From Brucepastera parasyntrophica (GTDB taxonomy: Bacteria > Spirochaetota > Spirochaetia > Treponematales > Treponemataceae), in NCBI RefSeq assembly GCF_022376835.1, contig NZ_CP084606.1, forward strand, positions 2,040,501 to 2,104,500: a DNA stretch of 64,000 nucleotides. Reading direction: 5' to 3'. The notes below the pieces were generated by a model. The model saw only the letters and a list, made by a program, of their open reading frames with translations. It was not told the DNA's origin and ran no database searches. This document shows positions 1,894 through 53,744 of this stretch, in pieces (position 1 is the first letter of the stretch; the number at the start of each line of letters is the position of its first letter). The translations under genes and the position numbers were made by a program.

Positions 1894-1964
1894 TTCGGTG
1901 TACAGGTTTTTCTTTGCTGTCCGGAAATCCTGTTTTTGATCTCCAGTCAGCCCGAAAACTTTGC

Positions 1965-2124: not shown

Positions 2125-2127
2125 GTT

Positions 2128-2216
<89 letters not shown>

Positions 2217-2279
2217 AAAAAATTACTGGATAATAATAAACTTCGGGAACCCCAGCCGGAACCTTTCAGTTTTTGCGTT

Positions 2280-2366
<87 letters not shown>

Positions 2367-2404
2367 AGAACAGAAAAAAATACAGGGCTGCGTTTTTTTC
2401 CGTG

Positions 2405-2431
2405 TTAAAAAAGCTGTCTCTCAAGACAGCC
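2405..2431 (-). terminator. Rho-independent terminator after tRNA-Arg
   Basis: Minus strand GCTGTCT-TGAG-AGACAGC followed by TTTTTT directly after the tRNA-Arg 3' end. It should end the upstream tRNA-Ser/Arg transcript and separate it from the two downstream serine tRNAs, which then need another promoter or read-through. Confidence 0.85.
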
Positions 2432-2435
2432 CGTA

Positions 2436-2509
2436 TGAGACTAAGAGGATTCGAACCTCCGGCCTTCAGATCCGCAATCTGACGCTCTATCCAGCTGAGC
2501 TATAGTCTC
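2436..2509 (-). tRNA. tRNA-Arg(GCG)
   Basis: Minus strand GAGACTA ... TAGTCTC plus discriminator A. Anticodon arm TCAGA-TTGCGGA-TCTGA gives anticodon GCG, reading CGC/CGU. Most bacteria use ACG (edited to ICG by TadA) for this box, so a genomic G34 is notable. The cloverleaf is otherwise standard (74 nt). CCA is not encoded. Confidence 0.9.
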
Positions 2510-2571
2510 GAAACAATGTAATATGCGCAAAAAAGGTCTGAACAACATCTTTCAGACAAAATCTAATTTTC

Positions 2572-2659
2572 CGGAGCAGGGGGGATTCGAACCCCCGGTA
2601 CCCTTTCGGGGTACAACTCCTTAGCAGGGAGCCCGATTCAGCCGCTCTCGCACCGCTCC
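2572..2659 (-). tRNA. tRNA-Ser(GCT)
   Basis: Minus strand acceptor GGAGCGG pairs with CTGCTCC, discriminator G. Anticodon stem GCTCC-CTGCTAA-GGAGT gives GCT (AGC/AGU codons). It has a long serine-type variable arm and an intact T-arm. Confidence 0.95.
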
Positions 2660-2705
2660 AAAGGATTGCTGTATTATAGTGTTACTCGGCAAGTCAGGAA
2701 CAGAA

Positions 2706-2966
2706 AGGACTCCGTTTCGAATCCCGGCCAAAACCAGACCGATATAACAATTCCATTTTAAATTGTTATATCGGAGCAGGGGGGATTCGCTTTCCAGTCG
2801 CGGACATCGTGTCCGCTCCTTCCAAGCCGCCTCCGTCCTCTTCCGGCGGCATCCCTGCCGCCTTTTCCTCCCGTTGGTCGGCGAGGACTCCGTTTCGAAT
2901 CCCGGCCAAAACCAGACCGATATAACAATTCATTTTAAATTGCTATATCGGAGCAGGGGGGATTCG
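2706..2966. repeat. 84-bp direct duplication enclosing hairpin element, copy 2
   Basis: Bases 2706-2789 recur at 2884-2966 with one indel and one substitution. Each copy runs from an element tail (ggactccgtttcgaatccc) through a spacer palindrome (GATATAACAAT / ATTGTTATATC) into the 3' end of a serine tRNA. Only the right copy continues into a full tRNA (2949-3033). After the left copy the tRNA body is replaced at 2790 by the same hairpin insert as at 1988, with perfect hairpins GCGGACA-tcg-TGTCCGC and GGCGGC-atccct-GCCGCC. The left unit is itself headed by the tail of a further, missing element. Confidence 0.75.
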
Positions 2967-3033
2967 AACCCCCGGTACCTTTCGGCACAACGGTTTTCAA
3001 GACCGCCTCCTTAAACCGCTCGGACACCGCTCC
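2949..3033 (-). tRNA. tRNA-Ser(TGA)
   Basis: Minus strand acceptor GGAGCGG/CTGCTCC, discriminator G. Anticodon stem GCGGT-CTTGAAA-ACCGT gives TGA (UCA codon and wobble). Long variable arm. It is the first gene of the cluster, 15 bases downstream of a good promoter. Confidence 0.95.
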
Positions 3034-3047
3034 ATAATACGTCATCA

Positions 3048-26181: not shown

Positions 26182-29100
26182 ATGAAGAAATATTTATTTA
26201 TATGTATATTTTCTCTTTTATCAGTAATGATGCTTTTTTCTTCCGGTAAAAAAGATACAACTGAGGTCCCCGTAAAAAAACTTGACAGCTGGCATGAGAC
26301 CCTTGATATCTCCCAGAAAAAACCCGGTAAATATAATATTCTTATTACGGCAACAGACCTTGCCGGAAACCAGGCTTTTGAAGGCCCCTATAATATATTT
26401 ATTGACCCTGAATCCGACCTCCCCGTTGTCCGCATAACCAATCCGCTTGAAGATATGCGTGTTCCCGGAAATCTGAATATAGTCGGTACCTGTATAGACG
26501 ATGACGCAGTCGCCTATGTTGAGTTGTATTTTGACGGAGATGAAGAAAATCCCGTCCGCGCCGAGGGTACGGAATTCTGGTCCTATTACCTGGATACAAA
26601 CAATCTGTCCGAAGGAAAGCATACCATAACCGTGTCCGGAACCGATATATACGGTGTCAAGGGAAGGCCGTATTCCGTCTCATGGAATCTTGACCGTGAA
26701 CGGCCCAATACGGAAATACTGACTCCGGGAATGGGTGTTCTTGTTTCAAGCAAGTTTTCCATTTCCGGTACCGTATATGACGGAAACGGAATAAAGGAAC
26801 TCTCCTATTCTCTTGACCGGGGAAGAACATTTACTCCGGTGCCTATAAAATATGACAAGAAAAACGATACATGGACATTTGATGTCACAATTATAACAAA
26901 GAATATGCCTGACGGACCGGCAGTGTGCTGGTTCAGGGCCGTGGACGGCCAGGGTTCCTCCGGTATAACCACCTTCCTTTATTTTGTCGACAATACCAAG
27001 CCGGAAGTGGGCTTCATTTCGCCTGAAGACAATGAAGCCGTAAACGGTATTTTTTCCGTTGCGGGATACGCCACCGACACTATCGGAATCCGCTCTCTGT
27101 CCTGGCGGATCGGCAAAGAAACCGGAGAGTTTGAAATCGTTAAAGGGAATCCGTACTGGGTAAAAGAAATTGATGTACGGGACCAGAAAATCAGAAACCT
27201 TACAGTTGATATTATTGCGACTGATGAGGCCGGCAACGTTACGACTGCTTCAAAAAAATACTGATAGATCCGGCGGCTGATGTTCCTGTCCTGACTATTA
27301 CATCACCGGAACAGAATGGCGTTTTTGCCGGCGAGGTTGTGGTAACCGGATACGCTGTTGACGACGACGGCATAGCGGAGGTTTGGTATTCCTTTGATAA
27401 AGGAGTTCCCGTTCAGCTGGAATCCTCCGGTGTTTTCTGCATAACAAACCACGCCTTAAGCGGCGGAACCCACACCGTTGAGATATGGCCTGTCGATATT
27501 CATGGCGTAAGAGGAGACACGGTTTCGCGTACCTTTAATGTAACCGGAACGGTCCCTCTGATTACTGTTAATGCAATAGGTGACAGTTATTCTTCAGTCG
27601 ATCCCGAAGCCGGGCAGGTTTTTACCGCGTCAGTCTTTTCAGACGCCGGACTCAAGAGTGTTTCCTACAAGGTCGGCGACGGGGCGGAAACTCCTGTTAC
27701 CGTCAGAAGCGGCAGCAGGGATGCTTCCATCAGTATTCCGGTAGCGGCAAATATGCCTTACGGGCTGGTGTCCGTTGAAATAACGGCTACCGATATTTTT
27801 GACCGCGTAACTGAAAAGAAAACTTCTTTCCATGTCAGGAATCTGCATATCCCGCACGGGAGTCCTCCTGAATGGTCCAGCGACACGCTGAAGGTTTCTG
27901 CCCCGGTAACACTTTCCGATTCGTCGTCAGGAACGGCGTCGGTATCACTGGAGCGTCTGCTGCCGAGAGATATTCCTTTTTCAAACGGCGCAATGGTTAC
28001 TCTGGCCGGACCGAATGCTCCGAGAGAAAAACGCATAGACGGCAGTATTGTTTTGAGCATTGATACGCCGATCCAGATCAATGAAATACTGTGGTCAATA
28101 AACGGCAGCCCTGATTCAAAAATTTCCGCGCGCCGTATTGATAGTTCTTCATCCCTGTATGAGGCGAGCATTCCCCTTTCAGCGACGCTGCCCGCGGGAT
28201 GGACAACAGTTACCGCCACCATAACACTGAAAGATCTGACCAAGCTGACCGTGTCGGGCGGCTTTGCGGTTATCAGGCCCATTCCTGACGCCGGCATTAA
28301 TGATGATGAACAATTTGTCTGGAATGTGCTGCAGAGTACTGCCGGCAGTATTTCCATTATCGGAACAGACGGGGTTTCGGGCTTCTATAATGCAAAAAAT
28401 GACCGGACCGCGGCGTCCGTAAGATTTGAACAGAATATTACGGGGATGCAGGCCGTTCTCGAAGGAAATACCGTACGCATTACCGGCGTAACTGATGGTG
28501 AATATAAAGGTGTGGCTCTCATTATTACCGATGACGCCGGCGCGGCTTTCAGAACCCAGCCCGTGGATTTCTTTGTTAATTCACTGGATCCCACCCTTAT
28601 TATTGAAAGCTGGGAACGCCCGGTCTGGCTCCAGGACGTACTTCCGATAAGAGGCTCCGCAAGCGATGGTCTGGGGATAGCGAGTGTTGACTATTCCTTT
28701 AACCGGGGCGAAACCTGGGTTCCCCTGTCCGGCGCCAACTTTAACCAGCGGATAGATATTACCGCCCTTCCTGACGGACCGCTTGAACTGCATGTCCGGG
28801 CTACAAACAGGGCAGGCCGTTCAACAACCAATATTTATATGTTTATAAAGGATACGACTCCTCCGGTGGTAGAAGTTGTTCTTCCCGAACCCGGCGATGT
28901 TGTAAACGGCAAAACCCTTATGGCTTTCCGTTTCCTGGATGACCATCCCGTTGTTTCGGCTTATTATCATAAACCCGGAGAGGACAGCAATCCTTCGCTC
29001 TGGATTCCCCTGGAATTGTCGTCAATGACAAATTGTTATGTCGGAACACCTACCATGCCCATCCTGGACAATATGGTTTTCCGCTTTAAAGACGCCGCCG

Positions 29101-31304
29101 GGAATGAAACCGTAATGTCGGAATACTTCTTCACTATAGACAGCGCCGGAGACTTGCCTGTTGTTGAAATCCATCTCCCGGAAGAAAATGAAATTATCCG
29201 TAAGGACTTTGTTATTTCCGGCGTTGTATATGATGATGATCAGGCCGCGAAAATTTTCTACAAAATAGACAACGCAGCATATACTGAAGTTGAAATCGAA
29301 CACAGTTTCTCGATACCCATAAAGCTTTCTTCACTGACGGACAATGAACATATCATAACCATGTATGCTGAAGATATATATGGCGTACGCGGAGAGGAAG
29401 TGCAAAGGACTATCAGGGTTTCCCTTGAAGAACCAAAAGCGGAAGTTCTTTCACCTACTTATGAAACAACGACCCGCGGAGTTGTAAGTATACTTGGTAC
29501 CGCGTCGGATAAAAACGGCATTGATAAAGTCGAAGTTTCCCTTGATAACGGTAATACATTTAATCTGGCTACCGGAGCGGAAATGTGGGAATACCGGTTT
29601 GACAGCCGGGTTATTCAGGACGGTACACATGTTGTCTTTGTCCGTGTCTATGATAAATATGAAACAACAGGGCTGTATTCGAGTTTGATTAATATTGATA
29701 ATACAGCTCCCCATATACAGCTCGAATTGCCTCTGGACGGCGGCCGGGTCGCGGATGCATTGTTTGTGTCCGGCCAGGCGCTTGACAACATCTCCCTTGA
29801 ACGGGTTACCGCAAGGATAAGCAACCTTGATTCGAGGCAGCCTGCTGTATCGGCAAATCTGAGCGAGATTGAAATTGAAAGCGATATAATTATCAGCAGG
29901 GTTATAGATATCACCACTTTGCCGGAAGGATTCTATAATATGGAACTGCGGGGGTATGACCGGGCAGGCAACATTACCAGGGTTTCACGCAACTTTGAAG
30001 TGAACCGTGGTCCGGACCGGAACCGTATTGACTTCCTGTATCCCCTGAACGGTGAGAATGTCCAGGGTGTGTTCAATCTTTATGGAAGGGTCGTTTCGGA
30101 AGATCCTGTTAATAATCTCCTGTTATATGTAGACGGTGTTGATGTCGCTGCTGCCGAAGTAACTTCATCAGGCTATTTCAAGTTTACGGTCGGCCCGGAA
30201 ATGATAGCGGACGGTCTGCATTCGCTGCTGGTAAAAGCCCTGATTGCGGGAGAACGGGTTATCAATTCTGAAGAACGGGCTGTCAACTATAAAGCAAATG
30301 GTCCCTGGATAACAATTGATAACTTCACTATGGGTGACTTCGCGATCGAACGTCCCTGGCTTATGGGTACTACTGGGTATTCATTCACTGAGGAAGAAAT
30401 CATAGCGCTCAACTCAAAGGAAACAACAAAAACGGAGAAGGCGGAACTGCAGCGCAAGTCCCTGAATAAAGTTGAAATAAGTTTTGATAACGGGAAAACA
30501 TTCCTCAAGACCGAATCAGGAAAGAAGTGGCGCTACCGTATTGAAACCGGCGACATGGACGAAGGATACCACTTCATGATTGTCAGAGCGACAATGAATA
30601 ACGGAGAGGTCGCAATAACCCGTTCAATCATACAGATTGATAAAACAAAACCGTCGATTATGCTTATCGCGCCGAGCGAGGGCGGAAGGTATAATAATGA
30701 GCTGGAATTCTCAGGACTCAGTTCTGACGATGTGAAACTGGATTCGGTAGTTCTTTCGCTGCGTGCCGGAGATAAATCAAGATACGCGATTCCTTCCTTT
30801 ATTCAGGGACTCTATTTTGACTGGCATGTATGGGGCGGAACCCTGTATGACATTGGCGTCGGGTTAACCTTCTTTGATAATAACGTTAAGGTCCAGGCCC
30901 AGTTTGGACAGTTTACCACGCGCCAGAGGGAACTGTTTACTGACGCCAATATGCGGTACGGCGGAAATGTTTTCGGATTCAAGCTTCTTGCCAACGTTGG
31001 ATATATACCAATGGACTTCTTCTTCGGACCGGATCTTTCCTGGCTGTCCGCGACTATAGCAATAGGAGCGAACTTCTCCATATTCACGGAATCCCAGAGC
31101 GGACAGCCGCAGATACTTTCGGCGGTTCTTGCCCAGCTGGAATTCCCCAGAGTAACATTGCCGAAGCGGACAACATTCCGTATCTTCTCGTTCTATACGG
31201 AATTCCAGCTGTGGTTTATTCCGACAGACGTTAATGTGACAGAAGTTGATATAAATTCTTTACTTCCGCATATATCGTTTGGTATACGCATGAACGTATT
31301 TTAA
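26182..31304 (+). CDS. Ig-repeat surface protein with C-terminal beta-barrel, one apparent frameshift
   Basis: Two frames join at the A7 run 27252-27258 to give 1707 residues. A signal peptide (MKKYLFICIFSLLSVMMLF) is followed by about fourteen Ig-like modules of 90-100 residues with repeated signatures such as GTVYDGNGIKELSYSLDRG and GTASDKNGIDKVEVSLDNG, each ending near ITATDLAGN or VRVYDKYET. The last 190 residues change character to alternating aromatic strands (YFDWHVWGGTLYDIGVGLTF, FHSIFGIRM-like end HISFGIRMNVF) with a terminal phenylalanine, typical of an outer-membrane barrel. The protein is probably anchored by the barrel with the Ig stalk exposed. AAGGGG precedes ATG. It is first in the surface cluster. 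Confidence 0.85.
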
Positions 31305-31313
31305 TTGAATCAG

Positions 31314-31345
31314 AAAGGCTTACCTGCTGAGGGTAGGCCTTTTAT
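31314..31345 (+). terminator. Terminator between the two Ig-repeat genes
   Basis: AAAGGCTTACC-tgctgag-GGTAGGCCTTTTAT, a 10-bp stem with one G-U pair and a short T tract. It suggests that the giant lipoprotein gene has its own promoter or depends on read-through. Confidence 0.55.
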
Positions 31346-31405
31346 ATCTGGTACCGTATTCAAAATGTGGTATTTGTTTTGTACTTGAGGGAAAGAAGGG
31401 GTCAT

Positions 31406-34400
31406 ATGCAGAAAATAACAGCGCGGAAACGAATCATCCTGGCGGTGATAGGAATCATGAGTTTAGCCCTTGTCCAGTGTGAAATAGGGCTGGGTGATTC
31501 GGTCGATACGAGTGCGCCTGAATTAACGATAGATTACCCTGCGATAAACAGTATCGCGCGCGGCGACCTGGTGGTATCCGGGAAAGCGTGGGACGAAACA
31601 GCGGTAGACCGCGTAGAAATAGTATTACAGAACAGCAGCGGAGTAAAGCAGTGGAGCGGAACGGCGCATCCTGACAGCACGCGGCGGTGGACGGCGAATA
31701 TACCGAACACGCGTGCGGCTGACGGGAGTGTGCCGTTTGCGGACGGACAGTACCGGGTAGTGGCGACTGCAGTAGACACGTCGAACCGGAAGACATCGGT
31801 GACGGTGCCGTATTATCTGGACAACACGCCGCCTTTGGTGGTAATTTCGCGGCCGTCAACGTCCGGGCCGGTAAAAGCTGACCCATATGGGGACGATCTG
31901 GTATTTTCTGGGACATTGTGGGATGAAAACTCATGTGCTGAAATGGAAGTGGTATTTTACCAGGACAATGGCGGCGTAATGAGTGAGGTTGCGCGGTACA
32001 GCCAGACAAATGTCCCGAGTGACTGGAAGCTGATAATCCCCGGGGACAAAGATGACCCGACGTCCGTATTCGGGCAGCTTGCTGCCGGGATGACGGGAAG
32101 TGAGGGAGCGCGGGAATTGTATTACACGCTGCGGGCGGTAGACAACGCGCAGGAGTACCGGGGTCCTGGAGAAACGGTGGCTGCGGGAAATGAAACGGAC
32201 CAGGTCTATATCTATGACAGTATACTCGCGTTATTGCCGGACGGAGAGAAGTTCCCGTCATCTGAGGCGCTTGCGTCGCTGGTGTACGGAAGTGAAACGA
32301 TGGTAGCCGGGATAAGCGAGGACGATCTGACGGGTATAGGACTTCATTCGTCTGAAGTGGATACCAGTACGAGCGGAAAGTTTTCGATAGATCCATATAA
32401 CAAGAACCCGAATGTGAGCATATTGCAGTGGACGCAGTATGTGGGGAATAATTTTGCGACTGGGTATACGTCGAACAAGATAGGAGCGAACCAGTATATC
32501 TCGGTAACGATAGAGCCTGGACCAGACGGAGTGGCGATAGATACGAGCCGTGTGTATGTGACGATGCGGCGGAGTACTGACGCTGATCCTGACCCTGATG
32601 AGGTACCGAGCGGGGAGACGAACCGGATACCCCTGAAGAGATCACGAGTAATGGACAGACGAGAATAATCAATTATGAAATAAATGCGCAAAAGGGGCGG
32701 TGGATATTGCGGGTAGACGCGGTGGACCGCAGCGGGTATACGACGACGCGGCGGGACAGTATGAGTCTTGCGTACCGAGATGACCATTATGGAGAGTTTG
32801 CGTTTGAAATAAACGGGTCTGCGCCGAAGGTAGAGGATGTAAGTACGCCGAACGGGAAGGTGAATGGAAAGATAAAGCCTGACGGGAGCGGGAAGTTTGA
32901 TATAGTAGTGACGGCGAGTGACTATGACAGTGAAACGATCAAGATAAGCGCGATCCCGGTGGATGTGAGCGGGAATGAGCTTGGCGGAACGATAGAGGTA
33001 ACGGCGAACTATAATAACCCCGGACTGGGAGAAGATGATCCGTTTACATTCAGCCATACCTTTACGGTGACGGCTCCACTTGAGGATGAGAAGGTATACT
33101 ACCGGTTCCAGGTAGATGACAATATGTACAAGCAGCGGACGACGACGTATTCGTTCCAGACGGACACGACGGCGCCGATACTGCGGAGTGTGACGAGGCC
33201 GCCCTTGGTGGACCGCGGCGGCGAGATGTGGGCGATACTGCAGGAGAGCGGGGTCACGATAGAGGGGTATTCCGACAATGATCTTGAGTCGGCGCAGCTG
33301 TGTTACAAGAAGGATGGGGCGGCGGCTCCTGTAGAGGGAGACAGTGCGTGGGCGACGGCAGATGTACCTGGGACGACGAATGTGGAGGGGTATAAGCTGT
33401 TCAAGATATCGATGGCGCTTGACAATGAGACGTCGACGAAGGAAGGGATATACACGATATATTACCGGCTCGCGGATGACACGGGACTGTACGGGGACAT
33501 TGGGGTCCTGTGCAAGGTCTTTATAGACAAGGGCGCGCCGGCGTTCTCTGACATGACGATAACACCGTCCGGAGGGAGTGCGGCAGCCATAACGTCCGGA
33601 GCTATAGTGTACCAGAACGGGAGCTATACGATAGCGGGGAAGGTGACTGACGGGAATGGGGTCGCGAGTGTTGGGGCGACGAAGAACGGCAGTGACATCA
33701 CGCTGACGCTGGGCACTGACACCGAGATGGAAAAGACATTTACGTATACACTTGGTTCAGTAGAAGGCGGATCTCAGGCGTATATCTTCCAGGCGGAAGA
33801 TGAGGCGGGAAATACAACCGAACTGAGATTTACGGTATATGAGGATGTTACCCTTCCGGTAATAGAAATTACAAACCCGGGTACGGATAATACATATTTT
33901 GATCATGTTAATCCAAGACTGTCCGCTACTATGTATGATGAAGATTCCGGTCTCCAGACTGTCCGGTACCGGGTATACGCAGATGGTACAGCCCCGAAAC
34001 CTGCCTGGACAAGCGCCAGCGCAACGGGCGTGCTGAATATATCCGATTTTGCGGCGACCTGGGAAGGTTTGACCTATTTTGATGTTGAAGCAACAGACAG
34101 GGCCGGAAATACAAATACGGTAAGCCGGAAGTTTTATATAAATACCGATATACCTTCCGTAACAATGAACTTTTATGTAGGAGCTGATTTAAAAGACCCT
34201 GATACGAATAATACCCATAATTTGCCGGGAACATATACGGTAAAAGGAACCGTAGCCAGCAGCATCGGGGTGCAGGACCTTCAGCTCACTGAAAATACCG
34301 TAACCCAGACAATAACCCGCACTGACGGAAACTGGAATATGGACGTTTCCGGAAAAGAAGACGGCGTATATATCTACACAGTAACCGTTTCCGATATGGC

Positions 34401-37400
34401 GGGGAAAACCCGCAGTGCCACCAAGACTGTGAGAATAGACACTACGGCGCCCCAGCTGACAATAGACGCACCGGTCAATGGTGAGTCAACCTCAAGCACA
34501 ACATATAACATTGAGGGTACTGCCCGTGACACAGGCGGTGTCGGAATTGACTCTTCTACAGGCGTTCAATACAGCCTTGATAACAGGACCTCCTGGACTG
34601 CCGCACCCATTGCGACTGGCGTCAAATGGGAAGCAACGGTTGATCTGGGAGCCACCAAGGGACTGCGTACGCTGATTGTACAGGCAAAGGACCTTGCGGG
34701 AAATACAAGTGAAGAAACCGTACAGTTTTATTATGATGCCGCTCCTCCCGTATTAACAGAAACAGCTGTCAATACAACGGATACAAAGTATATACAATCT
34801 TCACAGACTCTCTCCTTTGGAGGTTCGGTAAGTGATGACTGGAAGCTGGCCGATACGAATGCTTTGACTGTATCTGTAAATAGCGGTGCAGCCTCTGCGA
34901 TTACTCCAAGCGGCGGCGCCTGGACCTATACTTTCAATCAAAGTCTTGATCAGACCGACGGAACCTATCCCCTGGTCTTTACAGCTACAGACGGAGCGGG
35001 AAAGAAAACCACCGTCACCCGGAATGTAATGGTGGACAGTACTGATCCCGATATAACTGTAAGTACCGATCTGAGCGGCTGGTTCACAACAACACCGGTA
35101 AATATAGCCGGAACCGCTTCGGACAGCGGCAGCGGAATAGAAAAGATCGAATATTCAACTGATAACAAAGCCAACTGGCACCAATTATCCGGAACCACAA
35201 GCTGGAACGGAACGGTAACAGTCAGCCACAGTGACAGCAATGTTGTATATATACGGGCAACCGACCGCGCGGGAAATTATAGTGAAGCGACAAGAACCAT
35301 TAAGGCGGACTTTGTTAATCCTGAACTGACAATAACAAGTCCTGATGGAATGGTAGTAATTAACGGCAGTCAGGACCTGCCTATAGAAATTACCGCAAGC
35401 GACTCGGGCAGCGGTCTTAATTTCACAGGAACAAATACAATAACGATAAAAGTCGGTTCAACCGATTTCACCGCGCCGGATGCTGTTGCAGCATATGACG
35501 GGACGGCCCTTCTGTGGAAGGCTACGGTTCCGTCAGCCAAATTATTGGCGGCCACACAAAAGATTGTGTATGTTCAGGCGGAAGATCAGGCCGGGCGGAC
35601 TTCAATGAGAAACTTCCAATATCTTTTGGATACAACGCCTCCGACCGCATCAATTGTGCAGCCTGAAGCAGACACCAAAGTTAATAAAACCATGGTGGTG
35701 AGCGGAACAGCCAGCGATACCAACGGGTTAGGTTCTGTTAAAGTACAATTGCAGACAAGCGGTGACACCTGGAATGATATCGCGGAATTTACCGGCACGG
35801 CCGGTTTTAACTGGACAACATCGGTAGATACAACTGTATATAACAACACGGCTACTCCGTCGTCAGCCAAACTCCGGGTTATCGCAGCTGACAGCGCGGG
35901 AAATACATTTACAACTTCAGAGCGGGCAATAACAATCGATCAGGATTCAGACCGGCCTGAAATCCGGCTGACGAATATAACTGCGGCGGATTCTACCCTG
36001 AAAATGACTGCGCTGGTGTACGGAGCGGTCACTGACGACGACGGGACCATTCCGGCGGGACAGTTCCTTATCTCGACTGACGGCAAGGCCTGGGACGCAG
36101 GAGACAAGGAGTGGACAGCACTGACGCTTTCAAACGGCATGTTCAGCTATAATGCAGGGGCGGATGGCTCAAAAACACTCGATTTCAAAGTAACGGATGC
36201 ACAGGGTACAGTATTCACAACGGGTAACACCGCAGGAGACCTTACCCGTCCTAAAGTCTATTACGCAAACGCTGCGGATGAAACGGACTATGTGAGCACA
36301 ACCGTGACCTTCAGGGTCGACACCAAGACACCCGATATCCATCCGGATATATATATCGATATTGATAGCAGCGACGGATATTTCACGGATAGCACGGACC
36401 TTGCCGACGCGAACAAACTGACGAACGGTATGGTCTTCGGCGGCGACAAGTCGAAGTTTGCCCTGTGGGCAATGGCCAAGGACGCAAACGATATCCAGAG
36501 CATTGTCATAGAGATCGACGGAACAGAGTATACGGCGGTCAAACAGGACCGTGGTGCCGACCTTTCCTGGATGGAGGCGAGCAAGTTTGAAGGGTATGAA
36601 ATATTCATAACCAGCGAAATAGATATATCTGCGGTGTCTTCCGGCCGGCCGACGGTCACGATTATTGTAACAGATAATTCCGAGCTTGAAGCGACAGCTT
36701 CACGGCAGATAGTCATAGACCATACTGCGCCGACAGTCTCGTTTGTATCCCATGCGGACGGGGCGCAGGTAACCGGGGACATCATTGTCCGCGGAACGGT
36801 CGATGACGGGAACAACAGTTCAGGAGTTTCGACAGTCCAATGGAAGATCGGTAAGGGCGTTGATGAGAGCACGCCTCCGACGGACCTGGATCAGGCCTGG
36901 AAGAGTGTGGAAGGCTCGACTGTATCATGGAACGTAAGCTTCCAGGATGGCAGGTCAAATGGAAGTATCTCGGACTATGGAAATGACACCTACGGGACAG
37001 ACGTCGGAGCGGGACTGTACCGCGTGCCGCTGTGGATACGCGCGACTGACGCTGTAGGTAATGCCGAAAACTACCGGCTGTATCTGAACATTGATCCTAA
37101 TGGCGACAAGCCGACCGTCGCGATGACTTACCCGACAGACGGGGCGGTCCTCGGAGGCGCAATCCGTATCTTCGGAAGCGCCACTGACAATGAATCGGTC
37201 GACTCGGTCTGGATGCGGATCTATGACAAGGACGGCAATATATTCACGGGCTGGGACAACAGCGGTGAAGGGAAACAGGTCAACGGCACCACGTCCTGGA
37301 ATATAGTCATCAATGAATCGGTCGGCGGTAACCCCGGCGAGTTTGACCCTGACGCGGACGAACAGCGTGAAATCCGCATCAGTGTGCGGTCAAAGGACAA

Positions 37401-40400
37401 TGCCGGAAATTACAGCAGCTGGAGCGACTACATCACGGTATACATAGATAATGATTTGCCGCGAATCGGCGCGTCCTCTCCGCTGCGTCTGGTGCAGTAT
37501 GAAAATGCAGACGGCACTGGAGCGGAAGTGGCTGAAATGGACTATGTGTCCGGCATGTGGATGCGGGGCGCCTGGTACCTGGTCGGAAGCATTGAAGACG
37601 ACGGCGGCATTACCCGGATCAATATATCGGGGAACGTGAACGCGGTCCTTGATGTGGATAGTCCGGGAAGCAATAATAACGCCTCATGGTTTACGACACG
37701 CGGGGCGGTTATAGAGACATACTATAACTATGACATGAAGGTACCGGTCAGCGGAGTTGACGGACAGACGGGAACGATTACGTTTACGATTAATGTGCGT
37801 GACGGCAGTTCTCCGGCCCAGACTGTGTCACAGGTGATAACCCTCAAGTATGACAACAAGGCGCCGACCATGGTGTCCCTGAAGAGCGGTTCATCTGACG
37901 GAAGTGAGATAAACAATACCACGAATCCGGTGATACAGAGTAATAACGCGTATACCATCGGGTCCAAGGTCACTGAGGACGGCAGCGGATTCAAGCGCCT
38001 CGCGTTCTACTTCGAACGCGCGGGGAACCGGCTGTATGATCCGATGCTGGACAAGACGAATACGCATAACCGGATAGACATAATGTCCTCTGATGTCGAG
38101 TTTGTGGACGGCCTGTGGCGCCTCAAGATGACGGTAACACGTCCGACCGAGGACTCCCTTGACGCTTCGGGCGTCTTGGGCAACGCGAGCATCAGGGTCG
38201 GCGGACTCGTGAGGATCGGCGGTGTTGACCGGAGGATCTCTGAGATAACGGGAACGACGGTCAAGTTTACCCCGAGTGTCAGCACCAGCTATACGGACGC
38301 GTCCTTTGCGTACGCGCAGGTGGTTGATAACTTCCAGCTTGAGACCGGGACCTGGGTTAACGGCGTGTGGACACCGACGATTGACGACGGCGATGGTATG
38401 CCTGAGTCAATTGTGAAGATCGGGACAGAATACAGCTGGGACGCGTCAATTAATTCGAAGAACATCCCTGACGGGCCGATAACGATTTATGCGGTCGCCT
38501 ATGATGAGGCGGGAAACCACAGTGTGTATTCGGTGGCGACGAGTGTGCTGAATAACCGGCCGCGGCTCGCGAAGGTCAATGTGGGAACTGATCTGAATGG
38601 AAACGGGACGTTTGAGGCATCCGAGATGAAGAGTTACAACGCGGTGACCGAGGATGAGGCGGTGGCGATACTGAATATCGCGTACAGTTCCGCGAATCCG
38701 TACTATATCAAGAGTGATATGGCGGTGACCATGGACATAGTGGGCGGGAACGGGACGCTGAAATACTTCTGGACGTATAACGGCGCGGCCGCGGCTGCCT
38801 GGAACGGGACGACGTATCCGTCGAGTCCGGTGACGGGAACTGAGGCATCGCTGCAGAGCTTTACCCCGCTGATGGTGGGCGGAGACGCGACATACCTGAA
38901 TGCGGTGGTCATAAGTGCAAGTACGATGGATGCCATGGATGATATCCTGAAGCTGTTTACCTTCTCGGTATGGGACAGTACGGATGAGACTACGCCCGGT
39001 ACGGACAGCCAGTGGGCGCTGTTGAATGTGCCGGTGCACGTGGATGTTGTCGACACTGACGCCCCGGTAGCGGTTATAGATGGATTCTACTGGAAGAGCA
39101 GTACGGACAACTCGCTGTACAATAACTCGAAGGACAACGGACACATAGAGCTGGGTACGGTCCCCGCTGTTTCCGGAAAGATAAGCATACGGGGTTCCGC
39201 TTTCGACAATCAGCGGCTCGGCGCCCTGTGGATGCGGATTGACAATTTTACCTTTACGGCGGGAAGCAGCCTAGCTTCCGATAAAAACCAGTTCGGATTT
39301 GCGGCAAATGGGACTAACAGCGCAACAGGAAGCAATAATTATTATACTAAGCTTGCCGAATATGATATCGCCGGCAGCAAATGGGTAACTATTTTTGACA
39401 GCATGACTGACGCGCAAAAAGAGGCCCATTGGGATGCAAACGGCTGGCTGTTCACGCTCAGTGATCCTGACGGCATTACCCATGACGGCCATTCCATTAC
39501 CTGGCAGCTTGACTGGGACAGTTCTAAAGTCACAGGCGTAGCAGCGGCAAATATCGGCGTCCGGGTAATAGCGGAAGACTCCAGACCAACCGTCGCCAAC
39601 GCTTCTTCAGAGGTCAGAAATGACAGTGCGGTTGAAGCGGAAAATAATGTGCCCGGGTATGCGGTAGACGTTGTACCCTATATCACTGTTGTTAAAACCG
39701 GTCTGTCGTCGCTAAAAAGCAATAATCCTTCAGTCTATAACAGGACGGCTCTGGGGTATTATCCGGTGAACTCGACTGAAATAATTACGATATATGGATT
39801 CAATCTTAGTGGAGCGGTAGTGACAGGTTCTACTGTAACACAGATTACCGGCGGCATTACGATTCCGGCGGCAAATCTCACATCAGGGGAGCTGCCCCTG
39901 ACGGTAAACGGAATATCCCTTCTGAACAACAGTAACGATAATACCGCGGAATATAACAAGCAGTCGAACGGCGATAATAATCTGCTGCTTACGGATGATG
40001 TTGTGCTGGATGTGTGGCAGTTCGACAGTGAGGCGGCAAGGCCAATAAGCGGTATGATTGAGCAGCCGGTAATGAAAATAAATCCTGTTACGGGGACTAT
40101 CGGATTTGCTTTTGTGAATGGTCCGCTTTATTTTAGTATGGGCGGTACCGTAGGCGGAACGGAATATTCTTCGAATTATTGGATGGGAAGTTACGACTTT
40201 TTCACCTCAGTCGAATTCACGTATGATACGCTTGGTTATTCTTACGGCAGCGCCGCAGGTGGTGACATTAACTCTGCTTCGGCCGATAAATTCCAATTTA
40301 TGACGAGCCGTTGGGGACGCGCAGGGACCGGACAGAATGGATCATATGGGAATACCAATTCTTTGAGATTGGAATCTATCGGGCAAACGGATTCCTCAGG

Positions 40401-41433
40401 CACCATTATTTTTGATAAGCAGCGTATCAAGTCTCCTGTTTTCGCAACGGCGGTTCACGGAACTTCAACAAACGTGTACCTCGCGTATTACGATAATATA
40501 AACGATGAGATACGATTCAAGTACGGGAATATCAATTCGAATACATATGGCAACTTTGGCAATTTTACCGATTATGATACTGCCGGGCTGCCGTATGTAT
40601 ACCGCAACGCAACAGTCAGTATGATTGCGGGAAATGCCACCGGTCGTATTGCGGGTGAATATGTGGCAATTGCAGCCATTTCTGCAGAGACTGCTGCCAT
40701 TGACGATGTTGTTGTCGCGGTGTGGTATGACGCTACCAATAGATGTCTTTGGTATACGTACAATGATACGCCTACAACAAATCGCAATGGTACTGTTAAC
40801 GCTGAAGGCTGGTCTACGCCGGAACGTGTGTTTGACTCAGATATGGAAAATGCGGGGGAATATTGTCAGATCATGGCGGATAAAGACGGTGGTATTCATA
40901 TTGCCGCTTACGATCCGTCTAATCTGGATTTGGTGTATGCGTATAGGAGCCGGTACGATGCTTCCGGGTTTGATACATGCGTAGTTGACGGATACGGTGT
41001 TGTTGGTTCCAATCTTACATTGGATGTTGCGAAGGATAGCGATAATAACTGGATTCCATACATCGGTTACTATGCGACTTCCTGCGTAAAGCCAAAGTAT
41101 GCGTATAAGGTTGACACTTCGGCAAACGCTCCTGCCGGTTCTGAAGGAGAGCGCTTTACCGGTGCGTGGGAAGTAACAGTATTGCCAACGGCAAATCAGA
41201 TTCCGTTAGGCAGTCAGGGTATCAATAAAATGAATGTTGCCGTCTGGAAGAACAGCTCAACCTGGGTGCTGGAAAACTCCATAACAGGAACAAAGGCCGG
41301 CGCGCATAGCGGCGCCGGTTACACCGCAACTTGCTGGGATCGTGTTTATGGCAACGGCACGAACAACCCAGTGATGGGATACGCTATCCGTGTGGGTACC
41401 AATGGCTATATAGAAACGGCGCAGAAAAAATAA
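31406..41433 (+). CDS. Giant Ig-repeat lipoprotein (3342 residues), one apparent frameshift
   Basis: Start ATG 31406 with GAAGGGG upstream. The signal MQKITARKRIILAVIGIMSL ends in lipobox ALVQC, so it should be a lipoprotein. The frame breaks at CCCC 32630-32633; one added C gives RIPPEEITSNGQTRIINYEI and joins both parts. The body is a long array of Ig-like modules (GTASDSGSGIEKIEYSTDNK, GTVDDGNNSSGVSTVQWKIG). Near the end are an IPT/TIG-like module (ITIYGFNLSGAVVTGS) and a C-terminal region of BNR-like propeller strands (IHIAAYDPSNLDLVYAYRS). It is probably a surface adhesin or scaffold. Codon use changes in blocks along the gene. A strong terminator follows. Confidence 0.85.
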
Positions 41434-41512: not shown

Positions 41513-42761
41513 TCAGTACCCATAACCTTCCGCTAGCAGATAATTGCGGATCATCTGGGCAAACTGTGTCCGTTTCGCGGGGTCCGCAAAAGCGGCTATC
41601 CCTATTTCAGGAAGCGGCTGCTCCGAAGCTGCCGCGTAATACCGGACATCATCAGCCTGCCTGTCAGGCGCTTCGGCGTTTGAATTGACCGGGGCCAGTC
41701 CGCTCAATTCGGAAAGTTTTTTTGACCGTTCTGGTTAACAAGATAATATAAAAAATCCTGGGACTTTGCATTTGCCCGCCGCGAAGGAAGCATCCCTATA
41801 ATGGGCGGGGCGGTAATTCCTCTCGGGGAATCCCTGTCCGCGGGAGGCACCGCTGTCGCGGTATACCGTTCAATTGTACGCTGGGGAACACTCCTGTGGG
41901 TCAGAAGGGTCATAAAAACAATGTCCGCCAGGTTATCGCCCATGAGGCCTTCCACAGCCCTGTCATTAATGCGAAGCCATTCAGGGTGCAGGATATTATT
42001 ATTTTTGAGCTGGATAAGTAAATCAAGAACGTCCCTCAGACTGCCGATATCCGTATTCTGTACCGATAACTGCAGATCCAGCAGGTCCGTAAAAGCCGTA
42101 TCCTGTTTCATTGCTGCAACAAGAGCCTGCCAGCCGCTGACTGTACAGTATGATTCCGTCAGAGAGCCTACAAGAAACAGCAGATCAGAATCCTTTGCTC
42201 CCGCGCAGATAACAGGACGGAAAGAAGGCTTCTTTATTTTTTCTGCGGCGGTAATCAAATCATAAATGGTCTCCGGTTCCGCTATTCCGTTTTCGCGGAA
42301 GGTTTGTATATTATAGGCTACTTCAAAATGATTTAAAATAACCGGAAGCGCATAACCTGTCCCATTATAAAATCCTGCCCGCTGTATCGCGGACGGCATA
42401 AGCATAAACTGGCTCCTGTCCGGCTTTTTAACCCGGGCCGCAATTTCAGAAGCCGCTTCCCCCTGAATGGCAAAAAGAAGGGAAATCTTTTTATTTTTAT
42501 CCAGATTCTGTTTCAGGGACAGCGTATTATCAAGAGTGAGAAAGGATACCTTTTTCTGCCCCTCAAAATAGTCCGCAGCCATTTCCGTTATAGCTTCCTG
42601 AACGCGGCCCGGGACCCTGTAAAAGGCTATAACCGTCTTTGAGAAAAAACCAGCAAAAAAACTATAATGAAACAGATACAAACTGCCGATATTATAAAGA
42701 AAGGTATAAAAAAAGACCGTTTTTTTGAGGTTTTCCCTGAATTTGAAGGAAGTATTTTCAT
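41513..42761 (-). CDS. Membrane-anchored solute-binding-like protein, two apparent frameshifts
   Basis: Restoring one base in A7 42655-42661 and in T7 41717-41723 gives 416 residues. The repaired N-terminus (MKILPSNSGKTSKKRSFFIP, then a hydrophobic helix) is an uncleaved anchor or signal. The rest resembles a family 1 extracellular solute-binding protein: QRAGFYNGTGYALPVILNHF with VAYNIQTFRENGIAEPETI, a helical middle, and a C-terminal PEIGIAAFADPAKRTQFAQM. No ABC permease genes are nearby, so a transport role is uncertain. It reads away from the surface genes and shares their terminator. Its -10 lies 7 bases before ATG. Confidence 0.72.
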
Positions 42762-42902: not shown

Positions 42903-44000
42903 ATGAAGAAGTCTATCCTTCTTTTTCTATCATTATTTTTTCTGCCTCTGGCAGTTTCTGCCCAAACGGCGGTGCCGGATGCCGTATACAGGCAGGTTGA
43001 TGATGCTTTTCTTGCGAGTTCCCCTGAAGTTTTAACCGACGTACTGTCCAGATATACAAAAAACGCTTGGTATTATCGTGTGGAATCATATGTTCTGAAA
43101 AAAGCGAGGCAGCTTGTTCTGCAGAACGAACTTGATCAGGCAAGGAATGTGACGCTTTCCGTCATAGACAATAATCTGGATAATCAGGAAGCGGTTGAAC
43201 TCTATCAGTCAATAGCGTCCGCTATTTCACGGCGGGATGAAATAGCGAAACGTGAAGCGGAACGGGCCGCGATCGAGTCATTCAGGCAGCAGGCCGAAGA
43301 AACGAAAATCCGGCAGGAAGCCAGTAAAACCTATAAAACTGTTACCAATACAACGTCCGGACAGAGGATTTATCTGGACCAGAATTTTAACCAGCAATAC
43401 CGCACCGTAACCTGGGATTTCATGATCGGACTCGCAAATATTAATTATCTGTATGATACGAATGGTCACCATTTCAAGTACGGTCTCAGCGCGAACGGAT
43501 CGGTGTATTACCATAATGATTTCCTGACCTTTGGCGGCGAAATTTACGGGGACGCAATGGTCCTCACCTTCCTGGGCTCGGACGATTCCTTTAACTGGTC
43601 GGCGAGCGGGGTCCTGACAATAGCTTTCAACAAGGTAAGCAAAAATATTTTCCTCCGTGCCGGATACGCGGTTTTCGGGCTGGATACTACTGTAAACGAT
43701 ACGGTTGAAGGGCGGATGTTTATGTCTCCCGTTATTGGTCTCGGCCTTCATAAAGTAAAGCTCGGCGAATCGGGGCAATTCAAGCTGGCCGCGGATTATT
43801 ACCCGCAGCACCTTCTTAATGATGATATTAATTTTGCAATGGGACTCGAGGCGTCGATAACATTTGTACTCACACAATTGCAGAACTTTAATATACATTT
43901 CCAATTTGGACTCAGGGATACCATTATAATCCACAATAGTGATGGATTCAGAAATGATGCAAGGCTTTCCGTAGCCTTTGGAGTAGGAAATTATGAATAA
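42903..44000 (+). CDS. Exported coiled-coil protein with beta-barrel-like C-terminus
   Basis: A 365-residue protein with a signal peptide (MKKSILLFLSLFFLPLAVSA), a helical domain, a short coiled coil (RRDEIAKREAERAAIESFRQ), and about 210 residues of alternating strands (YRTVTWDFMIGLANINYLYD, FKLAADYYPQHLLNDDINF, LRDTIIIHNSDG). This looks like an outer-membrane barrel with a periplasmic helical arm. I do not recognise the family. GGAGA is 7 bases before ATG. Its last 8 bases overlap the next gene, so the pair is translated together. A periplasmic link to the membrane protein that follows is likely but unproven. Confidence 0.72.
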   Translation: MKKSILLFLSLFFLPLAVSAQTAVPDAVYRQVDDAFLASSPEVLTDVLSRYTKNAWYYRVESYVLKKARQLVLQNELDQARNVTLSVIDNNLDNQEAVELYQSIASAISRRDEIAKREAERAAIESFRQQAEETKIRQEASKTYKTVTNTTSGQRIYLDQNFNQQYRTVTWDFMIGLANINYLYDTNGHHFKYGLSANGSVYYHNDFLTFGGEIYGDAMVLTFLGSDDSFNWSASGVLTIAFNKVSKNIFLRAGYAVFGLDTTVNDTVEGRMFMSPVIGLGLHKVKLGESGQFKLAADYYPQHLLNDDINFAMGLEASITFVLTQLQNFNIHFQFGLRDTIIIHNSDGFRNDARLSVAFGVGNYE

Positions 44001-45426
44001 TAAAATGAAGAGCTTTCTGTGTGTACTTGTCTGTTTATTTGTTTCCGTATCGGTTTTTGCCGAAGATGAACTGGTAACAAGATATATGCAGGCCGCAAAT
44101 AACCAGTTTTCCGAAGGGAACTATGAAAGGGCGTTCACGTATATCAATAATGTTCTGTCCTTTTATACTGAATCAACAGTTCCGGGAAATGTGGTTGTCG
44201 CCGCCGAATTGATCTATTATACATACCTTACGCAAATCCGCGACACAAGAAATTATACGGCCTTTGCCAAGTTCAAGGAAAAACTGATCGAGTATCCCTA
44301 TGTCGGGAGCGAACGGATCCGGCGGACCGTAAATGTTATCAATACTCAGGAAATGCAGGACACAACCTGGGGTTCCGATCCCGCAAGCGCCTATGTGTCG
44401 CCGCCTGCCGGCCTCAGCGCGGAAGAGGTTAGGAGTATATTTAAAAATGCTCTTGATGAAGTCGACTCAAGAACAAACGACAGAAATGAAGAACTGAAAA
44501 ATGAGTTGATTACCGCGATTAAGGAAACGGACGGTACCGTATCGCAATATATAGAAGACCAGAAAACCACAACAAAAAACAACCAGCTGCTGTTTACGCT
44601 GATCATAGGCTTTTGCGTTGCCCTTCTGGTTGGCTTTATAATTTTTATCATCCATCTGATTGTGTCCTCGCGGCACGCAAAACAGCAGAACGCGAAAATT
44701 GTTGAGGCGCTGAAAATTGCCTTCCAGGTTCCGGCCCGGCAGTCCCTCGCGTCTCCGGGTATTGAGTCCCTGCCTCCTCCTCCGGGATCCGGTGAAGAAA
44801 ACCTGAAAGTTGTCGAGGGAAGCAACACGAGAACAGACATTCCGCCGGAATCCGAAACGGAAGAAGAAAAACAGGAATTTGACGCCCTCATTCAGACCTG
44901 CCGTGAGGTTGGTACACAAATTGATTATGTTACCGGCAGAAAAAACAATTCGAAAAATGTCGCCGAATTGGTATATAAGCTGGCCATTGAAATGGGCGCG
45001 AGCCAGTATGAAGCGATGGTTTATTACTCGGTCGCTCTGGTCTATGATATAGGTTTCCTGGGCGTAAACCCGAATCTGCATTATGAAAAGAAACTGAACC
45101 AGGACCAGAAAAATGAAATCCGCAACCATGTCAGATACGCGGTTGAAAGGCTGACCTTTGTTCCTGAACGGTTCAAGCATGTTTTCATTGACGGCGTGTT
45201 TATGCACCATGAAAATATGGACGGATCAGGGTATCCTGACGGACTTACCGGTTCAGATATTCCGTATGTCGCGCGGCTTCTCCGCGTCGCCGAATCATAC
45301 ATCGCGCTTGTTTCAAAGCGTGTGTATCATGATATAAACGATAAGGAATCGGCCTTTGAAAAGCTCAGGGAAATGCCCAACATTTACGATTCCGAAATTG
45401 TAGGCGCCCTTGAGAAAATCATTTAG
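43993..45426 (+). CDS. Transmembrane protein with degenerate HD-GYP domain
   Basis: 477 residues. A signal peptide (MKSFLCVLVCLFVSVSVFA) leads to a helical, TPR-like periplasmic domain (RYMQAANNQFSEGNYERAFT), a membrane helix (LLFTLIIGFCVALLVGFIIF), a proline-rich linker (ESLPPPPGSGEE), then an HD-GYP domain. The GYP part is intact (HHENMDGSGYPDGLTGSDIP), but the HD motif is VALVYDIGFLG with Y for H and F for the usual K, and VADxFDALTSDRPYR has become VAESYIALVSKRVYH. It probably lost phosphodiesterase activity and could bind c-di-GMP as a receptor. Start ATG 43993 has AGGA 5 bases upstream and overlaps the barrel gene. Confidence 0.82.
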   Translation: MNNKMKSFLCVLVCLFVSVSVFAEDELVTRYMQAANNQFSEGNYERAFTYINNVLSFYTESTVPGNVVVAAELIYYTYLTQIRDTRNYTAFAKFKEKLIEYPYVGSERIRRTVNVINTQEMQDTTWGSDPASAYVSPPAGLSAEEVRSIFKNALDEVDSRTNDRNEELKNELITAIKETDGTVSQYIEDQKTTTKNNQLLFTLIIGFCVALLVGFIIFIIHLIVSSRHAKQQNAKIVEALKIAFQVPARQSLASPGIESLPPPPGSGEENLKVVEGSNTRTDIPPESETEEEKQEFDALIQTCREVGTQIDYVTGRKNNSKNVAELVYKLAIEMGASQYEAMVYYSVALVYDIGFLGVNPNLHYEKKLNQDQKNEIRNHVRYAVERLTFVPERFKHVFIDGVFMHHENMDGSGYPDGLTGSDIPYVARLLRVAESYIALVSKRVYHDINDKESAFEKLREMPNIYDSEIVGALEKII

Positions 45427-52372: not shown

Positions 52373-52498
52373 TATATCTTTATTTATCGTTTCTATATAT
52401 ATTTCTAAACTTTCTTTCTCATATTCAGCAATTAATTTATAGAAATCTTCTTTCTCATTTTCCCGCTGCCATTTTTCTATTGCATCAAGATATTTCAC
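52361..52498 (-). CDS. Short open frame ending in the MITE-like element
   Basis: Possible 45-residue peptide from GTG 52498 (VKYLDAIEKWQRENEKEDFY ... TINKDITWK), highly charged and helical, from AT-rich DNA unlike its neighbours. Its stop codon is supplied by the right end of the MITE-like element, so it may be a gene cut short. It overlaps the EAL gene end by 14 bases. Expression is unproven. Confidence 0.3.
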   Translation of the reverse strand: MKYLDAIEKWQRENEKEDFYKLIAEYEKESLEIYIETINKDITWK

Positions 52499-53744
52499 CC
52501 GATGCTGTTCTGATTGCTTCTTCAAGGAAGTCTATGCACAGAATATACTCCCGCTCCGGATGTTCCATTTTTACGGAAAAGGTCCGGCACAGATTTCCCG
52601 AAGCCAGAGACAGGTATACATCGGTAAGATATTGCTGCACACCAAGGGCTTCGAAGCAGATGTAATAGGCTTTCAGGGAGTGGTTGGAACCTTTTTTTGC
52701 CGGAGAAAAAATGCAGGGCAGCGATTTTAATGAGAAAAATGATGAAAAAATTGTTTCCGAAAGCTGGGTCCCCTGGGCGTCCAGAAGATAAATACATTCG
52801 ATTTCGGGATTTATGGCAATAAACTCCTGGAAAACCTGTTTCATTGAATCAAAATTGTCCGGATTTATCTGCTTAACGAGCCAGTCCGCGAGGATTTTTA
52901 CATCTCCGGTAAGCCTCCGCTTTGAACGCAGCGAGGCGAGAGATGATTTATGAATATAAGACCGCATTTCGTCTATTGTTTCCAGGGTTTTTTCTTCCAG
53001 CTTTTGCAGATTCGGAGACGGTTTCGCTATCGCGAAACCCTGAAAAAGATCGACTCCCAGCAAATGACAGGTTTCGATTTCTTCAAGGGTTTCAACGCCT
53101 TCGGCAAGACAGAGGGAACCTGTCATTTCCGCAAGCAAATGGATTGACTTCAGAATGGACTGCCGGTAACTGTCATGGGCGATCCCTGAAATGATATTGC
53201 GGTCAATCTTTATAATATCGGGATGGATTTGAATAAGCCGTTCGAGATTTGAGTGTTCGCAGCCGAAGTCATCGATAACAATCAGAAAGCCCGAATCCCT
53301 GTAATGGTTTACAAAGTTTATCAGATCCATGACGGACTGGGCCCGGGACTCAATCAGTTCAAGACCTATATAATGGGGGTCAAAGCCCATTTTGTTGGTC
53401 ATAATGTTGATGTGGGGCCTTTCCGTATCACTGGAACTGATTATTGCCGTGTTAATATTCATGAACATGAGTGCGGTTGATTTGTTTTTGAATGTACTGA
53501 ATGTTTCAAGAGCTTTTTTCTGGCAGAGTCTGTCCAGTTCGACGGATACGGTTTCTTTTTCCGCCCTTTCAAAAAGCTGCGCGGGCTGGATCAGGGTATC
53601 GGTTTCAGGGACCACGCCGCGCACCAGGGCTTCATAGGCAAAAATGGTTCCCGTTTTCATGCTTACAATGGGCTGAAAGTAGGTTGTTATGTGTTCGTTT
53701 TCTATAATTTCCTGAAGAACAAAGTCAGTACACGATTCAATCAT
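52485..53744 (-). CDS. EAL-domain c-di-GMP phosphodiesterase
   Basis: 419 residues. The EAL domain comes first: FQPIVSMKTGTIFAYEALVRG, GLELIESRAQ, VIDDFGCEHSNLERL, DIIKIDRNIISGI, LAEGVETLEEI and FQGFAIAKPSP, so the metal and catalytic residues appear intact. The C-terminal 170 residues (NPDNFDSMKQVFQEFIAINP, CIYLLDAQGTQLSETIF) resemble a PDC/cache-like sensor without membrane anchors, known from similar EAL proteins. It likely degrades c-di-GMP in response to a cytoplasmic signal. TATACT lies 9 bases before ATG. It is the only clear c-di-GMP enzyme here, together with the degenerate HD-GYP protein. Confidence 0.93.
   Translation of the reverse strand: MIESCTDFVLQEIIENEHITTYFQPIVSMKTGTIFAYEALVRGVVPETDTLIQPAQLFERAEKETVSVELDRLCQKKALETFSTFKNKSTALMFMNINTAIISSSDTERPHINIMTNKMGFDPHYIGLELIESRAQSVMDLINFVNHYRDSGFLIVIDDFGCEHSNLERLIQIHPDIIKIDRNIISGIAHDSYRQSILKSIHLLAEMTGSLCLAEGVETLEEIETCHLLGVDLFQGFAIAKPSPNLQKLEEKTLETIDEMRSYIHKSSLASLRSKRRLTGDVKILADWLVKQINPDNFDSMKQVFQEFIAINPEIECIYLLDAQGTQLSETIFSSFFSLKSLPCIFSPAKKGSNHSLKAYYICFEALGVQQYLTDVYLSLASGNLCRTFSVKMEHPEREYILCIDFLEEAIRTASGEIS

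Follow-up and report, generated by a model that had tools for sequence, protein, structure and literature searches.

Two catalytically dead c-di-GMP receptors that act on large adhesins have been studied so far, LapD and DvhD, and both are held to signal from the inside of the cell to the outside (PMC13090378). In Desulfovibrio vulgaris, the HD-GYP pseudo-enzyme DvhD takes the place of LapD and controls large adhesins (PMC13090378; PDB 9RBZ, 9RC0; 2026). It binds c-di-GMP without metal via L577, K582, Y621, M646, R650, Y652, Y523 and E668, and the stabilisation by c-di-GMP was weakened in the variants R650A and Y652A/R653A (PMC13090378). In the active HD-GYP phosphodiesterase PmGH, three irons are held by E185, H189, H221, D222, H250, H276, H277 and D305, and K225 is needed as well; the exchanges H189A, H221A and K225A essentially abolished the activity (PMC4159591). 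In treponemes, c-di-GMP signalling has been little explored, and we found no treponeme receptor described in the literature that links c-di-GMP to the outer membrane.

The window analysed here, a stretch of 64,000 nucleotides from Brucepastera parasyntrophica (genome G000, a spirochaete genome of 3.24 Mb with 88% completeness, whose family group includes Treponema), contains two overlapping genes at 42903-45426, which, judged by their sequences, are a conserved trans-envelope unit of spirochaetes. The unit consists of a degenerate HD-GYP protein, named the receptor in the following (P0001), and its predicted outer-membrane partner:

42903..44000, + strand: partner, 365 amino acids, with signal peptide, periplasmic helices including a long helix, and a 10-strand outer-membrane barrel (structure model)
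43993..45426, + strand: receptor P0001, 477 amino acids, degenerate HD-GYP inner-membrane protein (open reading frame, Pfam, AlphaFold2, orthologues)
43993..44064, + strand: predicted signal peptide of the receptor, residues 1-24 (hydrophobic N-terminus, end SVFA/ED; helix 3-20 in the model)
44065..44370, + strand: periplasmic helical-hairpin domain of the receptor, residues 25-126 (AlphaFold2, pLDDT of about 90-97 over most of it)
44371..44580, + strand: variable periplasmic stalk of the receptor, residues 127-196 (length varying among species together with the barrel of the partner)
44581..44664, + strand: membrane helix of the receptor, residues about 197-224 (sequence and AlphaFold2 model)
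44860..45423, + strand: HD-GYP domain of the receptor, residues 290-477 (Pfam HD_5 and VIA structure comparison)

Pfam and AlphaFold2 bore out the initial annotation of 43993-45426 with regard to the single membrane helix and the cytoplasmic HD-GYP domain. HD_5 matched residues 317-469 (E=1.5e-22; 80.6 bits vs. a cut-off of 27.2), the modelled fold gave VIA Z values of 22.9 to PmGH, 22.0 to PA4781 and 20.2 to DvhD, and the resemblance to the HD-GYP structure of DvhD was also found by sequence (E=8e-11). AlphaFold2 placed a signal helix, the hairpins (26-126), a long helix (143-244) that includes the membrane span, and the HD domain (290-476), with a linker of approximately 40 disordered residues (about 245-285) between the membrane helix and the HD domain. 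This linker carries the motif LxGxxDLY...LRSAGSS...ALPxPE, which is conserved across Treponema and may represent a docking segment. The exported domain had been called TPR-like; Pfam returned no TPR match for P0001, so that this name is based on the helical hairpins of the model. Pfam matches to dCache or PAS were equally absent, as were GGDEF and EAL domains. Residues 26-122 gave middling helical matches to 14-3-3 chains (Z 9-9.6), which we took as uninformative. The most conserved part of the receptor is the HD domain, with a mean majority fraction of 0.66 vs. 0.36-0.49 elsewhere.

Relatives of the receptor were gathered by a profile scan of genome contigs; a scan of the contigs with the single sequence returned no relatives, and none were found in the viral contigs and phages searched. 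Conservation was counted over 85 distinct, aligned members of the family, part of which had been picked by the patterns [GSC]RKNNSKN or [MKC]HHEN[MIL]DG, so that the counts for both motifs are inflated. Genomes found by similarity only showed the same YD and HHEN pattern, and the four most distant ones keep RKNNSKN partly. The following segments are decisive for catalysis and ligand binding:

44938..44958, + strand: RKNNSKN replacing the E185/H189 metal-ligand segment (R 85/85, K 80/85, N 81/85, N 79/85, S 80/85; inflated by the pattern-based selection)
45040..45057, + strand: VYDIGF replacing xHDIGK, i.e. H221 to Y (84/85) and K225 to F (83/85)
45205..45237, + strand: HHENMDGSGYP, kept, with the family form HHENxDGSGYP (H405 and H406 85/85, likewise inflated; tyrosine of GYP 79/84)
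45319..45330, + strand: RVYH, corresponding to the c-di-GMP contact motif R.Y[R] of DvhD (R650, Y652, R653; role in DvhD from PMC13090378)

P0001 contains HHENMDGSGYPDG, has YD in the place of HD and F in the place of K225. Among the PmGH metal ligands, D222, H250, H276 and H277 are kept in P0001 and invariant in all 85 family members; E185, H189 and H221 are missing, and E takes the place of D305. Throughout the family, A, V or another residue stands for E185, and the position of D305 is occupied by E in 76 and by D in 9 of the 85 members. Hence, the residues of an active HD-GYP-type c-di-GMP phosphodiesterase (H189, H221, D222, H250, H276 and H277 plus K225) are incomplete in P0001, and the initial reading of a degenerate site, with YD for HD and other metal residues missing, was correct; full metal coordination, which would speak against that reading, was not found. 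The HD-GYP domain of the receptor is thus best described as a conserved putative pseudo-enzyme. Because the same substitutions are fixed throughout the family, the predicted loss of catalysis is ancient and maintained and does not represent decay.

To place this loss in evolution, we used a tree of 25 family members, 15 HD-GYP proteins from related spirochaete genomes, PmGH and DvhD. The 15 paralogues have the HHE motif without exception (15/15), and [LV]HD[IV]G is present in the 12 of them with a recognised pattern. The receptor family forms a single clade with a support of 100/100, and DvhD, PmGH and the canonical spirochaete HD-GYPs fall outside, which argues that the catalytic loss of the family is, as far as the tree tells, separate from that of DvhD. 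A member from Brevinematales (L094:10007-11476) keeps the histidine of the HD motif (LVHDIGFL) and has F for K225 and RKNTSRN; it could be an intermediate. The reduced genome G019 of the family (1.1 Mb) has neither receptor nor barrel nor the C-terminal domain of the neighbouring Ig protein described below.

Most of the positions that contact c-di-GMP in DvhD are kept, and therefore binding of c-di-GMP by the receptor is likely. Among the 85 members, the position of L577 is L in 82, that of K582 is K in 58 and R in 16 (K/R 74/85), that of M646 is L in 70 and M in 11, that of R650 is R in 84, and that of Y652 is Y in 74 and F in 9; the position of Y621, the tyrosine of GYP, is Y in 79 members. 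R653 corresponds to R in 78/85 and to R or K in 81/85 members, with H in P0001. E668, Y523 and the bridging P567 are not retained in the family, the positions of Y523 and K520 being read by hand from the P0001-DvhD alignment, as DvhD is shifted there in the multiple alignment. It must be mentioned that the activity of PmGH hardly changed when its recognition residues R314 and K317 were exchanged (PMC4159591), hence the conservation of recognition residues alone is a weak proof of binding. The presence of GGDEF cyclases was also considered as a test for the ligand; it is uninformative, since nearly all genomes have them (194 of 195 family genomes, with 16 matches in the Brucepastera genome).

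The overlap of the receptor gene with a gene for a barrel protein, noticed initially, amounts to 8 nt (42903-44000 and 43993-45426). In its structure model, the partner has helices at residues 26-143 and ten strands at 169-363 with high pLDDT; VIA gave Z 17.9 to pOmpT and 16.8 to OpcA, and the protein is predicted to form a closed antiparallel outer-membrane beta-barrel. In raw counts of genomes, the Fisher statistics of which ignore phylogeny, a full-length receptor was found in 76, the barrel partner in 77 and both in 74 of the 195 family genomes. Thus, 74 of the 76 receptor genomes have both genes, which therefore do not occur independently of each other, and in 73 of these 74 genomes they are adjacent on one contig and one strand with a median gap of 8 nt. 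Profile comparison of the periplasmic helical domains of both proteins aligned the signal-peptide region and the first helices alone with a probability of 62%, from which we do not claim common ancestry.

A further connection came from the stalk of the receptor, measured as the residues from the helical domain to the membrane. It comprises 65-434 residues (median 90) where the partner has a full barrel (67 loci), and only 14-26 residues in four loci in which the middle gene encodes a signal peptide and the helical domain alone (L121, L122, L124 and L125). Stalks of 47 and 43 residues were seen in L111 and L119, respectively, where we found no middle gene upstream, and L127 is an exception with a long stalk and no adjacent partner. 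The stalk is shortest where the barrel of the partner is missing, which suggests that receptor and partner touch across the periplasm, a contact newly proposed here. The four short-stalk loci group in the family part of another HD-GYP tree; hence the correlation reflects one to three evolutionary events. One receptor variant of 830 amino acids (G027:C46:11659-14133, L044) has a very long repetitive coiled-coil insertion in its periplasmic part.

The initial annotation had placed the pair downstream of two giant Ig-repeat genes (26182-41433) and close to an intact EAL phosphodiesterase. The surroundings comprise:

26182..31304, + strand: Ig1, an Ig-repeat array with a conserved C-terminal domain and an apparent frameshift near 27254 (Pfam Big_7; intact orthologues of 1756-2082 amino acids)
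30657..31301, + strand: Ig1C, the C-terminal domain of Ig1, 215 amino acids, probable outer-membrane domain ending with ...NVF (conservation among relatives)
31403..41433, + strand: Ig2, giant Ig-repeat lipoprotein with the lipobox ALVQC and an apparent frameshift near 32640-32707 (intact orthologues of 3269-4994 amino acids)
41704..42681, - strand: gene for a solute-binding-like protein, which separates the pair from the Ig genes (weak SBP_bac match; syntenic in several relatives)
52485..53744, - strand: EAL phosphodiesterase (Pfam EAL, E=5.8e-49)

The positions were right; however, each Ig gene is split by an apparent frameshift in this assembly. Moreover, the gene at 41704-42681 intervenes on the reverse strand, therefore the four genes do not form one operon in the window. 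The intervening gene is fast-evolving, neighbours the barrel gene in synteny in several genera and has no clear transporter partner that we could see. The EAL gene exists as described; we rejected it as a part of the module, because it is a neighbour only here and in one close relative. Elsewhere in the window (1781-3034, - strand), an SRP RNA lies beside a cluster of four tRNA-Ser genes and one tRNA-Arg gene. The frameshift in Ig1 sits at an A7 run, and relatives have intact single Ig open reading frames; moreover, a DUF4015 gene of the same genome (G000 C1:2312405-2313423) is split over two frames. Several split genes together with the completeness of 88% suggest indel errors of the assembly in Ig1, Ig2 and the DUF4015 gene, the alternative being slippage.

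Ig1 and Ig2 have Sec-type N-termini, and their Pfam matches are of the Ig type only. Ig1C, with an identity of 53-67% across the family, gave no Pfam or PDB match. It was found in 72 of the 76 receptor genomes vs. 61 of the 119 other family genomes (133 of 195 in total); it lies at most 2.6 kb upstream of the pair in 40 of the 72 genomes with both, and more than 6 kb away or on another contig in the other 32. In many Treponema, Ig1 is followed by the genes for the barrel, the receptor and DUF4015 in this order, at distances between a few nt and some tens of nt, and gaps of few nt between the stop of Ig1 and the start of the barrel gene recur across Treponema loci. The DUF4015 gene (putative glycosyl hydrolase) comes after the receptor at 44 of the 76 loci, and directly after Ig1 at loci that lack the pair (L131-L135, the 3' end of L137, and L140). 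Of 247 genomes from the whole phylum, 45 have Ig1C, 17 match the receptor profile and 10 have the barrel, so that Ig1 is also found across the phylum in genomes that lack the pair. As many as 38 of the 133 Ig1C genomes lack any match to the receptor HD family, so Ig1 has no need of the receptor, and the Brevinematales contig L094 has the pair with no Ig gene in approximately 9 kb upstream. Hence, receptor and barrel form the core unit; Ig1 is often found near them, but it is separable.

Taken together, we propose that the cytoplasmic HD-GYP domain would bind c-di-GMP without cutting it, and that binding would alter the receptor dimer. Through the membrane helix, the change would reach the helices in the periplasm; these would hold the periplasmic helical domain of the partner at the outer membrane, and this contact could tune the assembly, anchoring or display of Ig1. 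Such an inside-out control would follow the logic of LapD and DvhD and work without a periplasmic protease. For the whole chain, from a dead HD-GYP dimer that senses c-di-GMP to the barrel protein and Ig1, we see the chances as evenly balanced, with the receptor step better supported than the Ig1 output. The disordered linker, which differs from the rigid stalk of DvhD, makes a rigid-body transmission doubtful according to the model. A still wider view is put forward tentatively, with the balance somewhat against it: the family would be a second class of dead HD-GYP receptors for c-di-GMP, evolved independently and widespread in spirochaetes, which contacts an outer-membrane barrel directly from the inner membrane, needs no protease and controls giant Ig-array surface proteins.

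The alternative with the most weight concerns the output. The barrel/HD pair could have another task in the envelope and merely share a conserved neighbourhood with Ig1, as might be expected from the 32 genomes with distant genes and from G003, where the pair is absent and a DUF4015-type gene directly follows Ig1. Nevertheless, the near-complete co-occurrence (72/76) and the recurrent gaps of few nt in Treponema speak against an incidental link, and we consider it rather unlikely. Somewhat less probable is a signal in the opposite direction, in which the barrel and the periplasmic helices sense surface contact or the state of the envelope, the HD domain responds by sequestration of c-di-GMP or recruitment of a cytoplasmic partner, and the Ig protein is the input and not the output. 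Anatomy and gene linkage fit such an outside-in path equally well, and the flexible linker with its conserved motif before the HD domain resembles a docking segment; however, LapD and DvhD are held to work the other way (PMC13090378), and no downstream cytoplasmic effector is conserved beside the genes.

The two remaining alternatives concern the HD-GYP domain itself. If the protein were a constitutive tether between both membranes, with the HD-GYP domain as a dimerisation module that has no role for nucleotides, the dependence of the stalk length on the barrel and the very long coiled-coil stalk in one lineage (the 830-residue variant) would be readily understood. But a scaffold is not expected to keep the nucleotide contacts R443, Y445, Y414 and L368 so strictly, nor should its HD domain be the best-conserved part of the receptor, so that we regard a mere tether as improbable. 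A still-active phosphodiesterase would need an altered mono- or binuclear metal site made of D222, H250, H276, H277 and E434, for which four ligands are kept with a conservative E for D305; in PmGH, E185A and D305A merely reduced the activity, and E185 is naturally missing in a whole HD-GYP subgroup (PMC4159591). Against this stands the replacement of the residues essential in PmGH, H189, H221 and K225, in essentially all members, and related genomes possess HD-GYP paralogues with intact motifs, which makes residual activity very unlikely. Inside-out control by a dead receptor is therefore the reading that we prefer.

If it is true, dead HD-GYP receptors for the control of the envelope arose at least two times, in DvhD and in the spirochaete family, and a c-di-GMP receptor can reach the outer membrane by direct contact spanning the periplasm and not through a protease. 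As the pair is often encoded next to a giant surface protein, it may relay a signal from the cytoplasm to the cell surface. The receptor family represents a concrete candidate with mutable residues in dozens of Treponema species, including the cultured T. bryantii and T. porcinum.

Compared with the active enzymes PmGH, PA4781 and other HD-GYP phosphodiesterases, the receptor shares the fold, four of eight metal ligands and the GYP motif, and differs by the loss of the equivalents of H189, H221, E185 and K225. Bd1817 from Bdellovibrio, an unconventional relative, is inactive as well; it keeps a binuclear metal site and is without the GYP tyrosine (PMC4159591), while the receptor shows the reverse. 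With LapD/LapG/LapA of Pseudomonas fluorescens it has in common the logic proposed above, in which large surface proteins are acted on by a dead inner-membrane receptor for c-di-GMP. However, it lacks the degenerate GGDEF-EAL and LapD_MoxY, both features of LapD, and whereas LapG cleaves LapA, a large secreted adhesin, no BTLCP protease of the LapG/DvhG type (PF06035) was detected in the 195 family genomes (0/195; the positive control was found in Caulobacter), so that such a protease in the system was rejected. Of the Lap-like control by an HD-GYP receptor suggested in the initial annotation, the dead HD-GYP domain, its kept contacts, and the linkage to the barrel and often to Ig1 stand; the Lap mechanism does not, given the missing protease, the missing LapD-type GGDEF-EAL part and the Ig1 genes that occur without a receptor. 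Hence, Lap/Dvh logic may apply, and the mechanism cannot be the same, since there is no BTLCP protease and the EAL gene is not conserved beside the pair. The idea had been presented as possibly new; with DvhD (PMC13090378), Desulfovibrio already provides a precedent for a dead HD-GYP receptor that controls adhesins, and what distinguishes the spirochaete family is its apparent separate origin and its different partner. Like DvhD, the receptor is a catalytically dead HD-GYP protein that sits in the inner membrane and has a periplasmic domain; of the canonical site, L577, K582, Y621, R650 and Y652 are largely conserved, and large surface proteins are the suspected output. Unlike DvhD, its periplasmic domain is helical instead of dCache, a PAS domain is absent, and a flexible linker takes the place of the rigid stalk; a BTLCP protease is missing, and the partner is an outer-membrane barrel protein. 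The metal site was also lost differently, with YD...HHEN in the receptor and SQ...MNE in DvhD, and the receptor family is a separate clade. Altogether, we judge the spirochaete system, whose ligand binding and output we infer, to be an independently evolved, protease-free variant of LapD/DvhD-type control.
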